The position numbers and the translations under genes were made by a program. 7,726 bases of DNA from Zymomonas sp. (GTDB lineage Bacteria > Pseudomonadota > Alphaproteobacteria > Sphingomonadales > Sphingomonadaceae): assembly GCA_027489105.1 (NCBI GenBank), contig JAIYAJ010000478.1, positions 1 to 7,726 of the forward strand, written 5' to 3'. Positions within the stretch are counted from its first letter, which is position 1. Every line of letters begins with the position of its first letter. The notes under the pieces were generated by a model, which searched no databases, had not been told where the DNA came from, and worked only from the letters and a program-made list of their open reading frames with translations. This document shows, one piece after another, positions 1,427 through 7,277 of this stretch.

Positions 1427-2158
1427 CTAGCGAAACCAGATCGAAAAATTGAACCGCTGGAAATCGGCCGCCGCCTGGGACAGCGGCAATACGCTGTGGT
1501 CGAGCCCGGAGTTGACGTCGAACAGGATCATCCGGTTCGGCAGGGGATCGACAATCCGGTCGCCATCGCGCGCATGCATGACGAACTGGCCGCCCATGGC
1601 GGGGGTCCAGCCATCGCTGAAATAGAGCAGTGCGCAGATCGTCCGGCCGCCGATCGCATCGTCATGGCGCCGCGCAAGGTCACCGAAGACCATGCGGCGG
1701 ATGAGCAATTCCTGCAGAGCATCAGGGCGTCGACCGGCGATGACGCCCAGCAGGTCCATAAAGGCAGGGCTCGTCAACAGCGTCTTGAAACGGACGAGAT
1801 CGACTATGCCCGGGGAAAGCTCGCGTCCGCGCCTCACACGTTCGAACGCTTGATGCTGGAAGAAGCGCTCCGCAGGGGCCGCCTCGGCGAAGTCGGCCGC
1901 GTCGACCCATTTTACGGCATTCTGCCCAACGGTACCGTCCTCGCCGGCAGAGGGCATCAGTCCATGACGCGGGCCCCAAGCGACATCCGATTTCAGGGCA
2001 TCGGCTATCCGACGATATCGCGTCGGCAGCAGTACGTCGTCGATGACCACCATGCGGGCGTCATCCTCTGCGAAGCGGCGAGCGGCAACATGGCAGGAAT
2101 CGGTGTCGAGGGTGGTAGCTGACAACCAGTCGGTCAGTGGCGAAGCCGGCAAACTCAA
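1427..2158 (-). CDS. 2-oxoglutarate/Fe(II)-dependent oxygenase (prolyl-4-hydroxylase-like fold)
   Basis: The protein belongs to the 2OG/Fe(II) oxygenase superfamily (2OG-FeII_Oxy_3, P4Hc type), cytoplasmic enzymes that hydroxylate a protein, peptide or small molecule using O2 and 2-oxoglutarate. Counted from the TTG at 2158 (243 residues), the HxD iron ligands are His165 and Asp167 (RRHDD), the distal His is His221 (DHSVLP) and the 2OG-binding Arg is Arg235 (QRFNFSIWFR). The LYFSDGW..AMGG strand and LPNRMILF core also match the family. All key residues are present, so it should be active. The start is uncertain. The frame is open up to 2557, but residues before AARRFAEDDARMVVIDDVL do not look like a domain and would run across the small plus-strand gene at 2283. 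TTG 2158 has an AGAAAGGG ribosome binding site at good spacing; ATG 2209 (260 residues) has only a poorly placed AAGAAG. The gene is divergent from the precursor-like gene and convergent with the secreted protein gene. The substrate is unknown. Confidence 0.85.
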   Translation of the reverse strand: MSLPASPLTDWLSATTLDTDSCHVAARRFAEDDARMVVIDDVLLPTRYRRIADALKSDVAWGPRHGLMPSAGEDGTVGQNAVKWVDAADFAEAAPAERFFQHQAFERVRRGRELSPGIVDLVRFKTLLTSPAFMDLLGVIAGRRPDALQELLIRRMVFGDLARRHDDAIGGRTICALLYFSDGWTPAMGGQFVMHARDGDRIVDPLPNRMILFDVNSGLDHSVLPLSQAAADFQRFNFSIWFR

Positions 2159-2282
2159 TTTGCAACCCTTTCTCGGCCAGCTGAGCCTAACCGGATCGCT
2201 GCCTAGCATCTTCTTGGATCTAAGAGGCAACCATAGTATTGGGGGGGCGGAGACATCGGAATTCAGGCGAGGGGTTTTTGCA
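2159..2282. promoter_or_regulatory. Divergent intergenic region between the oxygenase and the precursor-like gene
   Basis: About 124 bases separate the two head-to-head starts and must hold promoters for both if both are transcribed. The only suggestive elements are TAGTAT at 2234-2239, a weak -10 match readable in similar form on both strands, and a run of seven G at 2241-2247. No convincing -35 box is visible. The plus-strand ribosome binding site GAGGGG is at 2269-2274, eight bases before ATG 2283. The stretch is clearly less GC-rich than its surroundings. Confidence 0.35.
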
Positions 2283-2450
2283 ATGGCGCAGTCGGACAGA
2301 AAAGATATGGACGTGCTCGAGGCAGAGTGCGCGCAGCCATCAGCTTCGGCCAAGGGCATTTGGAGCACGCCTTCACTGACGATAGTCGATCTGTCGGATT
2401 CAACCTTGGCGATGGGGGCTGGCTCGTCAGACTCAGGTATTCTCAGCTGA
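2283..2450 (+). CDS. Small lasso-type RiPP precursor-like peptide (55 residues)
   Basis: A 55-residue ORF starting MAQSDRKDMD and ending in TAG-free frame at a TGA (2448-2450). Its ribosome binding site is strong: AGGCGAGGGG at 2265-2274, eight bases before the ATG. The first 26 residues are polar and acidic. They are followed by W27-x-x-P30-x-L32 (WSTPSL), which matches the Y/W-x-x-P-x-L motif recognised by RRE proteins in lasso-peptide leaders. A threonine at position 41 sits two residues before a possible core, AMGAGSSDSGILS (43-55), as Thr(-2) does in known leaders; the Trp would then be at -16. Asp50 would be residue 8 of that core, the position of a macrolactam acceptor. Against a true lasso: the core would have only 13 residues, with a five-residue tail, and no maturation genes adjoin. 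It may belong to the wider group of alphaproteobacterial proteins with lasso-type leaders and other fates. The gene is divergent from a 2OG oxygenase. The leader motif is seen; a RiPP function is inferred. Confidence 0.55.
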   Translation: MAQSDRKDMDVLEAECAQPSASAKGIWSTPSLTIVDLSDSTLAMGAGSSDSGILS

Positions 2451-2620
2451 GGTGTTTTATGTGAGGGCGGCTTTGCTCTGCAACTTCGTTGCTGCAGGAT
2501 AAGCTGCTCCGTCCTTTCGCAACTCTGATCCGCGCGCAGGATTGCCCCATCCGTCATTAGCGGTCATGGCGGCACCGTGACCCGACGCACCAGCCGCCCT
2601 GACAGCAACAACAGTGCGCC

Positions 2621-2635
2621 CGAGCAGAATGCTCG
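2621..2635 (+). promoter_or_regulatory. Leader hairpin just upstream of the MFS gene
   Basis: CGAGCA (2621-2626) and TGCTCG (2630-2635) form a perfect six-base stem with a GAA loop, seven bases before the GGAGG ribosome binding site of the transporter gene. It could influence translation or bind a regulator, or be chance. The rest of the 207-base gap between 2450 and 2658 shows only a weak five-base stem (2480-2492) and no gene I can support. Confidence 0.25.
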
Positions 2636-2657
2636 CACCGGCGGAGGGGAAGACCCG

Positions 2658-3824
2658 ATGCGCCGGGGGCAGGTCGACCATGGCCGCGCCCGCGCGGCGC
2701 TCTTTCTCGCGGGCTTCGCGACCTTTTCCCTGCTCTGGTGCACCCAGCCGCTGCTGCCCGCCTTCGCCGCCCATTTCGGATTGAGCGCGCCGACCAGTGC
2801 GCTGGCGCAGTCGATGACCGCTGGCGCCATTGCCGGGGCGAGCATGGTCGCCGCCGCGCTGTCGCACCTCTTCACGCGCCGCCGGCTGATGTTCACGGTG
2901 ATGCTGGTCGCCGCGCTTCTCAACCTGGCCGTCGCCTTCGCGCCGAACTGGTCGGCGCTGCTATTTGCTCGTTTTCTCCAGGGGGCGGCGCTGGGCGGGG
3001 TGCCGGTGGTCGCGATGGCCTATCTGGCCGAGGAGATGGACGATCGCGACCTGCCCCGCGCGATCGGCCTCTACGTAGCGGGCACGGCCTTCGGGGCGAT
3101 GATGGGGCGGGTGGCGGTCGGGGTGATTGCCGACCTGCTGGACTGGCGCGGCGCCATGGCGGTCGTCGGCGTGGTCGACGTCGCAGCGGCGATCGGCTTC
3201 CTGCTGCTGCTACCGGCGTCGCGCAACTTTGCGCCCTCGCGCGGCTTCGATATCGGCGCGCATATCGGGCACTGGCGCGACCAGTTCCGTTCACCCGCGC
3301 TACGCCGTCTGTTTGCGGTCGGTTTCGTCCTGACCAGCGTCTTCGTCGTGCCGTTCAACTATGCTGGTTTTCGGCTGAGCCATCCGCCCTATGATCTCGG
3401 GCAGGCGGCGAGCAGCCTCATCTTCCTGACCTATGTCTTCGGCATCGTGTCATCCGCGCAGGCGGGCAGCCTGATCGCCCGTATAGGGCCCAGACGGGCG
3501 CTCGCGGCCAGCATCGCCGTCATGACATCGGGCATGATCGTCAGCCTTGCCGAGCCCCTCTGGGCGTTCATCCTCGGCATCATCCTCGTGACGATGGGGT
3601 TCTTCGCCTCGCATGCGATCGCCAGCGGCGAGGTGGGACGGCAGGCAGGGCCGGCCAAGGCCCATGCGGCCTCGCTTTACCTGCTCTTTTATTATGCGGG
3701 GGTGACCTTGACCGGCTGGGGCGCCGGCTGGTTCTGGGAGCATAGCGGATGGCTGGGGCTGACGGTCGTCACCGGGATCATCGGCACAGCCGGGGTGGTG
3801 CTGGCGCTCGGCGGACGCGACTGA
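2658..3824 (+). CDS. MFS transporter, YnfM-like
   Basis: A 388-residue major facilitator protein of the inner membrane, expected to have twelve membrane segments. It resembles E. coli YnfM along its whole length as I remember that sequence: FATFSLLWCTQPLLPAF in segment 1, an R-F-L-Q-G-A-A-L-G-G segment, AMAYLAEEMDD, GLYVAGTAFGAMMGR, the DWRGAMAV loop, LPASRNFAP before the central loop, VPFNYAGFRL, and ASLYLLFYYAG near the end. The usual loop 2-3 motif is reduced (SHLFTRRRL), while the second-half copy is clear (GSLIARIGPRRALA). YnfM-type proteins are usually annotated as drug or metabolite exporters; the substrate here is unknown. ATG 2658 is chosen over GTG 2577 because it has GGAGGGGAAGA about ten bases upstream and starts the conserved region; the 27 residues before it look like non-coding read-through. 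It follows the precursor-like gene on the same strand after 207 bases, so a role in exporting that peptide is possible but unsupported. Confidence 0.92.
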   Translation: MRRGQVDHGRARAALFLAGFATFSLLWCTQPLLPAFAAHFGLSAPTSALAQSMTAGAIAGASMVAAALSHLFTRRRLMFTVMLVAALLNLAVAFAPNWSALLFARFLQGAALGGVPVVAMAYLAEEMDDRDLPRAIGLYVAGTAFGAMMGRVAVGVIADLLDWRGAMAVVGVVDVAAAIGFLLLLPASRNFAPSRGFDIGAHIGHWRDQFRSPALRRLFAVGFVLTSVFVVPFNYAGFRLSHPPYDLGQAASSLIFLTYVFGIVSSAQAGSLIARIGPRRALAASIAVMTSGMIVSLAEPLWAFILGIILVTMGFFASHAIASGEVGRQAGPAKAHAASLYLLFYYAGVTLTGWGAGWFWEHSGWLGLTVVTGIIGTAGVVLALGGRD

Positions 3825-4928: not shown

Positions 4929-5033
4929 ATGTCCGAATCGGGTGGTCGAGACAGTCGTCCGCTGGCCGGGGATCGGGTGTGGCCAGCATCGCGCACAGAT
5001 GGATTCGCGACCCGGAATATGCGGCGGGCTTAG
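4929..5033 (+). CDS. Possible 34-residue ORF with a very strong ribosome binding site
   Basis: A short frame beginning MSESGGRDSRPLAGDR and ending RNMRRA with TAG at 5031-5033. It is notable only for its ribosome binding site: AAAGGAGGG at 4915-4923, five bases before the ATG, close to a perfect anti-Shine-Dalgarno match. It is arginine-rich with no membrane segment or known motif. It is divergent from the OmpA-like gene and its stop overlaps the stop of the minus-strand nucleotidyltransferase gene by three bases. It could be a small regulatory or leader peptide, the remnant of a truncated gene, or chance. A 7-base inverted repeat (GCTGGCC 4961-4967, GGCCAGC 4981-4987) lies inside it. The remaining bases between 4797 and 4928 show no other feature I can support. 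Confidence 0.28.
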   Translation: MSESGGRDSRPLAGDRVWPASRTDGFATRNMRRA

Positions 5034-6310
5034 TGCGCCGCGACCGCTCCATCATGCCGTTCGAGCCAGTCGTGAACGGCGAGCATATGATCGACGATCG
5101 CCATATCGGCGTGGTTGGAAGCGCTCTCCGCACGGGCGCCGCTGCGGCCGATCAGGGCGGGCCTGCGCCTGGTGCCGATCTCCCACAGCCTGCGCGCGTA
5201 GAAGAGGGGCATGCGTGGCGATCGGGGATCGACCGGATACATGTTCGCCATCTCCAGCCGCGACGGAAACAGCCGGCCGAAGAGGAAGGACGACAGGTCC
5301 CCGCTGCGGCGGCGCAGGCGGGTCTGCAGCGACAGCTTGAGGTCTTTGCGCTGGCTGGCGTCCTGCAGCATGATCAGCGCGGTCGCATCGACCAGGGCCG
5401 AGGGCACCGAACAGGATCCGGGGCCGCCCTCCGGTTCGGGGATCGCTACGCTCGGCCAGTAGCGCCGGGTGAGGGCGAAGCTCAGCAGCGCGCCGTGACG
5501 GCAATGCGCCCGGTCGGCGAGCGACCAGAAGAGCGGCCAGTCGACGCTGCCGCCCCGGACCAGCCAGGCGATGTCGCTGAGCAGCAAAGGGCCGTTGTCG
5601 AAGGCGTGCCCGTAAGCGGCGTGCTCGATCAGATGGAGCAGCGTGTCGGTTGGCGAAGGAAAGGCAATCTCGCGGCCAGGCTCCCCAAGCCGCACCAGCC
5701 GCTCCCAGAAGGCGGGGTCTTCGCTCGGCTCATAGCCGTCGCCGCGCTCGCGATCGTGGAAGAGACGGAAATGAACCTCGACCGCCATGCCCGTCGCGGG
5801 CGAGCGTGCCGGCGGCATCTGGTGCAGGAAGTCGAGCGCGGATTCCGGACTGCCCTGGCTCAGCTCGATCTGGCCATAGCCTTCGGCCTCCAGCAGGCGC
5901 CACGCCTCCACCGCGCGGTCGCGCGGGACGAGGATGTCGATGTCGCGCAGAGGGCGGAGTTCCGGGCGTGGATAGGCGGTGCGGCCGAGATAGGCGCCCT
6001 TCAAGGCGGCGAAGGATATGCCAGCTTTGGAGAAAAGAGCGCGCAGTCGCTCCAGTTCGGCGGCCGCGCGCAGTCCCGCCATGGCCTGGGCGCGCCGCCG
6101 CTCGACCAACTGGACTGCGATCGGGCCGGGAAAACAGCCGGGATCCTGCGCCAGCCTCTGCCCGAGCAGCGGTTCCAGCCGATGCTGCCGCGCCATCCGG
6201 ATAAGGTCGTCCCAGGCGGTGGCATCGAGCGCAGCGTAACGGGCCATATCGACGGGCCGCTCGATCGCAATCAGGTCGAGCAGCAGCAGCGCGTGCGTAG
6301 GATCGCTCAT
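5030..6310 (-). CDS. Nucleotidyltransferase family protein (PF14907 type)
   Basis: A 426-residue protein of the uncharacterised nucleotidyltransferase family NTP_transf_5 (PF14907). Counted from ATG 6310, the diagnostic stretch is AALKGAYLGRTAYP (Lys104-Gly105), then RPLRDIDILV with the metal-binding Asp123 and Asp125, and the third acidic strand MAVEVHFRLFH (Glu178, His180). LLHLIEHAAYGHAF and LLLSDIAWLV (Asp246) complete the family pattern. The catalytic residues are intact, so it should be active, but the substrate of this family is not established. Members are often encoded in lasso-peptide and related clusters near PqqD-like, asparagine-synthetase-like and HPr-kinase-like genes; none of these is seen here. 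The frame is open to a TTG at 6376, but the conserved region begins at MSDPTHALLLLDLI, and GAGG before the TTG is too close to it. ATG 6310 itself lacks a clear ribosome binding site, so the start is uncertain. It follows fghA on the same strand after 124 bases. Confidence 0.85.
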   Translation of the reverse strand: MSDPTHALLLLDLIAIERPVDMARYAALDATAWDDLIRMARQHRLEPLLGQRLAQDPGCFPGPIAVQLVERRRAQAMAGLRAAAELERLRALFSKAGISFAALKGAYLGRTAYPRPELRPLRDIDILVPRDRAVEAWRLLEAEGYGQIELSQGSPESALDFLHQMPPARSPATGMAVEVHFRLFHDRERGDGYEPSEDPAFWERLVRLGEPGREIAFPSPTDTLLHLIEHAAYGHAFDNGPLLLSDIAWLVRGGSVDWPLFWSLADRAHCRHGALLSFALTRRYWPSVAIPEPEGGPGSCSVPSALVDATALIMLQDASQRKDLKLSLQTRLRRRSGDLSSFLFGRLFPSRLEMANMYPVDPRSPRMPLFYARRLWEIGTRRRPALIGRSGARAESASNHADMAIVDHMLAVHDWLERHDGAVAAH

Positions 6311-6434
6311 CGGCGATGCCCGCAGCGGATGCGGCAAAGGGCGCGGCGCGACGTCATGGCTTTCTAGTGACGCCAAAACCTCGTCGGATAAAGGCGCAAT
6401 TTCAATATCTCGTGCCGGGCCTCGGGCCGCCGGA

Positions 6435-7277
6435 TCAGCTCAGGCGGGCTGCGTGCCAGCGCAGATGATCGTCCATGAAGGTCGAGATGAAATAATAGCT
6501 ATGGTCATAGCCGGGCTGGAGCCGCAGCGTGAGGTCTATCCCGGCATCGGCGCAGGCGTCCGCAAGCAGCTGGGGCTTGAGCTGGTCGGCCAGGAAACCG
6601 TCCGCCTCGCCCTGATCGACGAGCAGATCCTTCACCCGCGCGCCGTCCTCGATCAACGCGACCGCGTCGTGCCTACGCCACACCGCCCGGTCCTCGCCCA
6701 GATAGCCGGGGAGGGCCTTCTGACCCCACGGCACCTGCGACGGCGCCACGATCGGCGCGAAGGCCGATACCGAGCGGAAGCGTTCGGGGAAGGTCAGGCC
6801 AATGGTCAGTGCGCCATGGCCGCCCATCGAATGGCCGGTGATCGCCTGCCGGTCCATGTCGGCCGGGAAATGCTCGGCGATGAGCGTCGGCAGCTCCTCG
6901 GTGACATAGCTCCACATGCGATAATGCGGCGCGAAGGGTTGTTCGGTCGCATCCACATAGAAGCCTGCGCCCAGCCCGAAATCATAGGCGCCGGCCGGAT
7001 CGTCGGCCACGCCTTCGCCGCGCGGGCTGGTGTCCGGCGCGACGAAGATCAGGCCGAGTTCGGCGCAGGCCCGCCGATACTCGCCTTTTTCGGTCACATT
7101 GGCATGGGTGCAGGTGAGGCCCGACAGATACCAGACGACCGGTAGGCGCGCGCCCGGCTCGTGCGGCGGGACATAGACCGAGAAGGTCATGTCGGTGCCG
7201 GTGACGGCGGACGCGTGGCGATAGACTCCCTGCACGCCGCCGAACGCCCGGTTGGTCGAAACGGTCTCGATGCCCAT
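6435..7277 (-). CDS. fghA: S-formylglutathione hydrolase
   Basis: A 280-residue cytoplasmic serine hydrolase (esterase D family, alpha/beta hydrolase fold) that splits S-formylglutathione into formate and glutathione, the second step of glutathione-dependent formaldehyde detoxification. The catalytic triad is visible as Ser150 in GHSMGG, Asp226 in DQGEADGFL and His259 in GYDHSYYFI. Other family marks are VVWYLSGLTCTHAN (oxyanion region), VAPDTSPRG, GAGFYVDAT and the length, which is normal for the family. It starts 11 bases after the adhC stop on the same strand, so the two genes form an operon. The ribosome binding site is weak (GATCGGG), consistent with coupling to adhC. The 124 bases between its stop and the nucleotidyltransferase start hold no convincing terminator, so read-through into that gene is possible. 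Confidence 0.96.
   Translation of the reverse strand: MGIETVSTNRAFGGVQGVYRHASAVTGTDMTFSVYVPPHEPGARLPVVWYLSGLTCTHANVTEKGEYRRACAELGLIFVAPDTSPRGEGVADDPAGAYDFGLGAGFYVDATEQPFAPHYRMWSYVTEELPTLIAEHFPADMDRQAITGHSMGGHGALTIGLTFPERFRSVSAFAPIVAPSQVPWGQKALPGYLGEDRAVWRRHDAVALIEDGARVKDLLVDQGEADGFLADQLKPQLLADACADAGIDLTLRLQPGYDHSYYFISTFMDDHLRWHAARLS

Follow-up and report, generated by a model that had tools for sequence, protein, structure and literature searches.

Can a short lasso-type peptide be made from a precursor gene that has no lasso enzymes beside it? This question is raised by a 55-codon open reading frame (ORF) in a stretch of 7,726 nucleotides from Zymomonas sp., referred to here as the window. 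The window contains, in this order, the 3' end of pntB, a gene for a conserved 269-aa protein, a 2OG-Fe(II) oxygenase gene, the precursor gene, an MFS transporter gene, minus-strand genes for an OmpA-domain protein, an NTP_transf_5 nucleotidyltransferase and an S-formylglutathione hydrolase, and part of a further gene (Table 1). Neither a cyclase (C), an RRE protein (B1), a leader peptidase (B2) nor a kinase was found in these 7.7 kb. The initial annotation had described the ORF as a candidate lasso-type precursor, and the details on which it relied are confirmed by direct reading of the letters: GAGGGG placed eight bases ahead of the ATG, 55 codons closed by a stop at 2448-2450, the motif W27-S-T-P30-S-L32, T41, and a tail running from A43 through D50 to S55.

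Table 1. Coordinates of the precursor gene, its predicted parts and neighbouring features in the window.
Feature	Position	Strand	Basis
2OG-Fe(II) oxygenase, candidate tailoring hydroxylase, probable TTG start 2158	1427..2158	-	PF13640/PF13661; divergent from precursor
Ribosome binding site (RBS) GAGGGG	2269..2274	+	8 bases ahead of ATG; sequence
Predicted lasso-type RiPP precursor gene, 55 aa, stop included	2283..2450	+	orthologues L001, L002, L093; purifying selection
Leader, residues 1-42, predicted cleavage after Leu42	2283..2408	+	predicted from Thr41 (-2) and alignment
Predicted RRE-binding motif W27-S-T-P-S-L32	2361..2378	+	W/Y and Pro in 14/14 rows
Thr41, leader position -2	2403..2405	+	Thr in 12/14 rows, Ile or Val in two
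Predicted core, residues 43-55, AMGAGSSDSGILS, Ala1-Asp8 ring, five-residue tail, C-terminal Ser	2409..2447	+	alignment; ring predicted
Asp50, core 8, predicted ring-closing acid	2430..2432	+	Asp/Glu at core 8 or 9 in 14/14 rows
Site matching cyclase and second precursor of syntenic L093; remnant not found	2451..2576	.	comparison with L093
MFS transporter, downstream; putative link to peptide only	2577..3824	+	PF07690; syntenic in L001 and L093
NTP_transf_5 nucleotidyltransferase, possible tailoring enzyme (PsmN-like role)	5030..6376	-	PF14907, 2.7e-51

Relatives of the precursor were sought beside oxygenases, as the window oxygenase led to 14 homologues and these to three genomes. Two closer oxygenases each have a 55-mer relative in divergent orientation, as in the window; the precursor of locus L001 from a Rhizorhabdus MAG (G001) is 59% identical (E 2.6e-14) and that of L002 from a Ferrovibrio MAG is 46% identical (E 5.6e-6). 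A third orthologue is located in L093 of G503, a genome of the Rhizorhabdus genus whose one 4.33 Mb contig represents about the whole 4.3 Mb genome. The conserved 269-aa protein (476-1285) is syntenic in L001 and L093 and has no Pfam or NCBIfam match at E <= 1.

The precursor frame continues open upstream to an ATG at 2043, so the start at 2283 is not imposed by the frame. The L001 orthologue (5539-5372, minus strand) begins at the aligned position with an identical GAGGGG ahead of it, which backs 2283 as the start in the window. Between the two ORFs, differences occur at 22.3 of 40.5 synonymous but only 26.7 of 124.5 non-synonymous sites (Fisher p = 0.00012). From W27 to the end, first, second and third codon positions differ 6, 3 and 12 times between window and L001, 10, 2 and 15 times between window and L093, and 4, 1 and 12 times between L001 and L093. 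Of eight genes compared between window and L001, none has diverged as far as the precursor (60% amino acid identity, dS 1.00, dN 0.25); its dN/dS is 0.25, that of the seven others 0 to 0.46. At the level of sequence, these comparisons show a real, conserved gene under purifying selection. A pattern derived from the precursor family, and fitted to it afterwards, matched once in the window and never in 400 dinucleotide shuffles of it. A control scan of 282,946 bases from loci already known to be pattern-free was circular and is not counted.

A chance ORF, or an antisense reading of the oxygenase frame, might be suspected because a minus-strand frame (1427-2557) is open across the precursor and no family model matches the latter. 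However, the oxygenase homologues start near 2158 and do not reach the precursor, variation in the plus frame is greatest at third codon positions, and homologues are found beside lasso-type genes. The initial annotation had held that conservation of the opposite strand instead would speak against a precursor gene; since the oxygenase homologues begin before the precursor, the conservation does not lie in the antisense frame that crosses it. The frame conserved in L001, L002 and L093 refutes this explanation in practice, and on these alignments we give it next to no credence.

Family models brought no support, as the 55-mer matched none of the NCBIfam, Pfam or PHROG models, which counts against a lasso-type precursor. 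With the 55-mer alone no candidate was found among 5.8 billion proteins, a promoter and terminator scan of window positions 2080-2680 gave none of either, and Rfam yielded no match at the gathering score. The search of viral contigs returned nothing useful, and the search of plasmids only the MFS and OmpA stretches plus two weak oxygenase matches.

Relatedness to lasso precursors was analyzed on the residues that the family conserves. From W27 to the end the sequences are WSTPSLTIVDLSDSTLAMGAGSSDSGILS in the window, WTTPSVTIVDLSDSTLAMGPGVADGGIFS in L001, WSAPSVTLVDLSDSTLAMGPGVADGGFFS in L093 and WAAPSVTAIDLAAVTLAMGPGDSDAGIFGS in L002. All four share W-x-x-P-S-[LV], Thr(-2), Asp at core position 8 and a C-terminal Ser. 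An alignment of 14 rows (the window and 13 relatives, registers read by eye) contains W/Y-x-x-P in all rows, Thr(-2) in 12, with Ile and Val in the others, and Asp or Glu at core 8 in 12 rows and at core 9 in two. The C-terminal Ser is present in 14 of 14, and the patterns that found the rows made no demand for it. The W/Y lies at -16 in 12 rows and at -17 in two; the published position in lasso leaders is -17 (PMC10368454). A profile of these rows retrieved 24 proteins at E <= 1, all ending in Ser, several of which are rows used in building the profile and none of which belongs to the window's AMG subgroup. Searched against whole genomes, the profile matched in 3 of 14 of the genus and, among 385 genomes sampled from the class, in 8, one of them G001. 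Among the 34 distinct matches listed, 33 have a locus and were read; 32 of these end in Ser and one (L130) in Pro. Used directly as the query, the L001 precursor matched in one of 199 family genomes, its own, which indicates that the window's subgroup is rare. Relatives in protein databases are called hypothetical or uncharacterised wherever a source names them.

Discrete lasso RREs recognise [Y/W]xxPx[L/V/I/F/A] (PMC13381572), and W27-S-T-P-S-L32 corresponds to this motif. T41 occupies position -2, where lasso leaders have Thr and rarely Ile or Val, and D50, as core residue 8, lies within the range of 7-9 for the ring-closing Asp or Glu. The leader motif, Thr(-2) and Asp8 are what the relatives conserve, which supports the reading as a lasso-type precursor. 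The eight-residue ring from Ala43 to Asp50 that had been proposed remains a prediction, consistent with the acid kept at core 8 or 9 in all 14 rows. The product would be AMGAGSSDSGILS with an Ala1-Asp8 ring and a five-residue tail, possibly hydroxylated and modified on Ser13. The calculated [M+H]+ of the ring-closed core is 1134.51, and would be 1150.50 after hydroxylation by the oxygenase, 1214.48 after phosphorylation and 1230.47 with both.

To our knowledge, a core of 13 residues is at or below the short end of lasso peptides, and this counts against a lasso. The initial annotation had considered the core too short and perhaps a sign of another RiPP class. The concern about length is eased, since cores of 13-14 residues recur across the precursor family. 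Canucin has 14 residues (PMC9266682), one more than the core predicted here, and according to a review legend the solid-state structure of xanthomonin I lacks 4 tail residues (PMC13352647); together they suggest that a short threaded peptide is possible. The literature search for the shortest lasso gave no size record in the texts it returned. Another RiPP class becomes less likely, as the closest relatives of the window precursor adjoin a cyclase (L002, L093).

The wider family contains further types. In another subgroup (P0015, P0024, P0029, P0031-P0038) 11 proteins have almost the same predicted 14-residue core, TTSGPVSDGNGSTS, behind differing leaders, which suggests a fixed role for the mature peptide. 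A subgroup with two core cysteines (L055 10234-10416, P0020, L131; start ITNCGSG) may comprise disulfide-bridged lassos. In the L027 precursor (6717-6878), position -2 is Val and the core is predicted to begin with Asn; Asn1 is described as new in metanodin (PMC12670498). G503 also harbors a lone precursor (WTAPELTVIDLSEATETFNGGAGDSNTGS; L094 7551-7691) with the nearest cyclase match about 39 kb away. Other family precursors are positioned near a JmjC_2-type oxygenase and not the 2OG enzyme (L014 9687-9839 and 8211-9368, L092, L052, L099).

The related loci form a series in which a cyclase is either beside the precursor or gone. In Ferrovibrio L002 the order is cyclase (+), precursor (-), oxygenase (+), PqqD (+), and in L093 it is cyclase (+), precursor 2 (-), precursor 1 (-), oxygenase (+). 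The L093 cyclase is placed and oriented as in L002, and no PqqD was matched in the 19 kb of L093. L093 is located inside the same frame of NTP_transf_5, OmpA, MFS and, at the other end, pntB as the window. L001 contains two precursors and the oxygenase, and the cyclase is absent from its 12.4 kb. The window contains a single precursor and the oxygenase, and 76 bases lie between the aligned blocks compared with 410 in L001. No cyclase remnant was detected in window positions 2380-2760 at E <= 10, and in L001 only matches of 5-12 residues appeared (E 1.8 or worse). As order and orientation are common to Ferrovibrio and G503, loss of the cyclase in the branch of window and L001 is likelier than gain. 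The losses in window and L001 could be separate events.

The enzymes near the precursor relatives are asparagine-synthetase-like. The best NCBIfam model for four scanned cyclases was lass_lactam_cya with 184-284 bits, below the cut-off of 525, and for two scanned PqqDs a lasso PqqD model with 56.5 and 71.8 bits, below the cut-off of 80. In 9 of 14 control genomes the cyclase model also gives matches that fall short of its cut-off, so this score by itself proves little. Among 13 aligned N termini, Cys2, a feature of glutamine-hydrolysing enzymes, is missing from the 12 lasso-type enzymes and present in the 13th, which we take to be an exopolysaccharide-type enzyme. Sequence comparison pairs the Ferrovibrio PqqD with TbiB1 and with a lasso PqqD structure. 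With 76.4 bits against a cut-off of 33, the G001 B2 clears the NCBIfam lasso_biosyn_B2 model, and the Pfam family of B2 matches in 2 of 14 control genomes. The motif SGGLDS occurs in 7 of the 13 aligned enzymes, and SAGRDS in the unlinked cyclases of G001 and G503 (L060 4589-6541; L090 8077-10029). This change, the cyclase and PqqD scores below cut-off and the failure to find C, B1, B2 or a kinase in the 7.7 kb of the window are points against a lasso peptide matured in trans.

Genes for cyclase, PqqD (B1) and leader peptidase (B2) that are not linked to a precursor are present in both G001 and G503. Examples are the cyclase at L060 4589-6541 (minus), the B1 at L051 8046-8339 (minus) and the B2 at L013 9650-10102 (plus). 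The unlinked cyclase of G001 (contig C336) is a sister of the Ferrovibrio cyclase in a 13-sequence tree (45% identity, support 0.99). Between G001 and G503, the unlinked cyclases are 73% identical with syntenic flanks, the PqqDs (C360 in G001) 84% identical with a syntenic flank on the one side compared, and the B2 proteins 81% identical and syntenic. The unlinked B2 is also 63.5% identical to a Ferrovibrio B2, and no precursor pattern was found in the 19 kb surrounding the latter. G001 has seven profile-matched precursors at five loci and one B2, on another contig. G503 has nine precursors at eight loci (eight by profile, one by pattern), and its whole genome gave two B2 matches, one of them at one of the eight loci; thus seven loci would need a distant B2. 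With the C360 PqqD as query, five matches were obtained in G503, four at precursor loci and one unlinked; on this count, four of the eight loci lack a PqqD of their own. HprK-like kinase genes occur at other loci of both genomes. In Ferrovibrio G002, five PqqD matches each lie near a cyclase and two B2 genes share one contig, and G506 has three B2 genes, one at one of the four loci with a precursor seen. G003 harbors its single B2 on the contig of the cluster, the ordinary arrangement, which indicates that unlinking is not general. Several of these genomes (at least two) are MAGs and may be incomplete, so the absence of further copies is not proof. By comparison with these relatives, which alone supply the putative partners, the window precursor, if matured, is probably matured in trans. 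The literature search covered open-licence PubMed Central texts and brought up neither a lasso B2 that is unlinked or shared nor a Rhizorhabdus lasso peptide.

The window gene might also be a relic: with the cyclase lost, the precursor would have ceased to be matured and would be disappearing. The cyclase of L093 is missing from window and L001, the window lacks the second precursor as well, and the precursor has diverged more than any of the other genes compared with L001. However, the frame is intact, the RBS is conserved and the synonymous excess is significant. The neighbouring oxygenase is 93% identical to that of L001 with its metal ligands intact, and the unlinked C, B1 and B2 persist at syntenic places. 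A relic thus appears rather improbable.

The oxygenase was analyzed as the candidate enzyme for tailoring. Its HxD...H...R residues are invariant in 15 aligned rows, and the predicted fold resembles Tpa1, OGFOD1 and prolyl-4-hydroxylase (mean pLDDT 82.6). CanE, a 2OG enzyme, is described as acting on a linear lasso precursor with the aid of B1 (PMC9266682), which makes action of the neighbouring oxygenase on the precursor the best guess. A strictly prolyl target does not fit, as the window core contains no Pro; in L001, L093 and L002 the first precursor carries Pro at core position 4. A match to the cyclophane-oxygenase model NF041706 was too weak (18.2 bits, cut-off 150). A gene-order search gave oxygenase matches in 7 of 396 genomes, five of which were dropped as no precursor or lasso gene was recognised by eye in the 19 kb around each. 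Between window (1427-2158) and L001 (5660-6397) the dS of the oxygenase is 0.07, compared with 0.22-0.51 for six other flanking genes and 1.00 for the precursor, as if the gene had recently been exchanged by recombination. The NTP_transf_5 gene is syntenic in L001 (89% amino acid identity) and L093 (80%).

Among known systems, the phosphorylated lassos of the paeninodin and pseudomycoidin type share with the window and its relatives discrete B1 and B2 proteins (in the relatives), the leader motif Y/W-x-x-P-x-L, Thr(-2), an NTP_transf_5 gene and a C-terminal Ser as in the kinase substrates, here S55 (PMC9266682, PMC8498205). Kinases of this type are described as modifying the C-terminal Ser of their substrates and an NTP transferase as adding hexoses to it (PMC9266682, PMC8498205), whereas the Bsf kinase acts on Ser3 instead (PMC10368454). 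The window differs in its 13-residue core, its 2OG oxygenase and the absence of cyclase, B1, B2 and kinase from the locus. No HprK-like kinase was found in the window, matched in L093 or seen by eye in L001, and the window is therefore not assigned to the phosphorylated lassos. Canucin A resembles the window product in its short core and the 2OG oxygenase, but CanE hydroxylates a C-terminal Asp (PMC9266682) and the window core ends in Ser; the fold of the window oxygenase is Tpa1/OGFOD1/P4H-like. The Bradymonas Bsf and the Sphingomonadales precursors with Ile or Val at -2 have the same leader architecture, and Ile(-2) (L003) and Val(-2) (L027) occur in the wider family, whereas the window has Thr(-2), W at -16 rather than -17 and no linked kinase (PMC10368454). 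The lipolanthine microvionin provides a precedent for an unlinked RiPP leader protease, as its leader proteases are described as encoded outside the cluster (PMC10885120). It belongs to another RiPP class with a zinc protease, whereas here the lasso-type B2, B1 and cyclase are all unlinked.

The LPP family bears on a further explanation, that of an unthreaded RiPP with a lasso-type leader, either a branched-cyclic macrolactam or a linear hydroxylated and phosphorylated peptide like the LPPs. LPP loci lack a cyclase, as does the window, and their leaders begin with Y/W-x-x-P; LPP clusters share the RRE, HprK kinase and NTP transferase (PMC13381572). The NTP_transf_5 gene near the precursor and the tail of only five residues would also fit. 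However, the leader from W27 onwards (see WSTPSLTIVDLSDSTLAMGAGSSDSGILS) does not contain the LPP motif YxxPxVLxHQxIxFETxxS, and Thr(-2), Asp8 and homologues linked to a cyclase set the precursor apart from LPPs (PMC13381572). The acid at core 8 or 9 is never lost in the 14 rows, and a cyclase adjoins the gene in the syntenic L093 and in the Ferrovibrio cluster, although an unthreaded ring would be compatible with this as well. An unthreaded product is unlikely on balance, if less so than a relic.

We consider it quite probable that the product of the ORF is processed into a short lasso-type (macrolactam) peptide, with C, B1 and B2 supplied in trans from genes located elsewhere in the genomes of this lineage. 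B1, a PqqD-type RRE on a separate protein, would bind the leader at W27-x-x-P-x-L, and B2, a peptidase of the transglutaminase fold, would cut between Leu42 and Ala43. The asparagine-synthetase-like cyclase would then join the amine of Ala43 to the side chain of Asp50, giving a ring of eight residues with the tail S-G-I-L-S. The neighbouring 2OG oxygenase would most likely hydroxylate the precursor, and Ser55 would be a likely site for a kinase and perhaps for the nucleotidyltransferase.

A more far-reaching proposal is tentative. The window may represent a lasso pathway caught part-way through dispersal, in which precursor and oxygenase are still together and many precursors rely on a remote cyclase, a remote RRE and a single common leader peptidase. 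Its product might be a lasso of 13 residues, one of the smallest, with a tail of the type D-G/S-G-hydrophobic-hydrophobic-Ser kept inside the ring by its pair of hydrophobic residues and plugged by a modified C-terminal Ser. The dispersal of the machinery and the shared B2 would make it more than a routine new member. Genome mining usually seeks lasso precursors next to a cyclase and a peptidase. A lineage with unlinked parts, in which one B2 would need to serve up to seven loci, is easily missed in this way. Two questions could be put to such a lineage as a natural experiment: do RREs discriminate between leaders in trans, and what is the minimum length of a threaded peptide?
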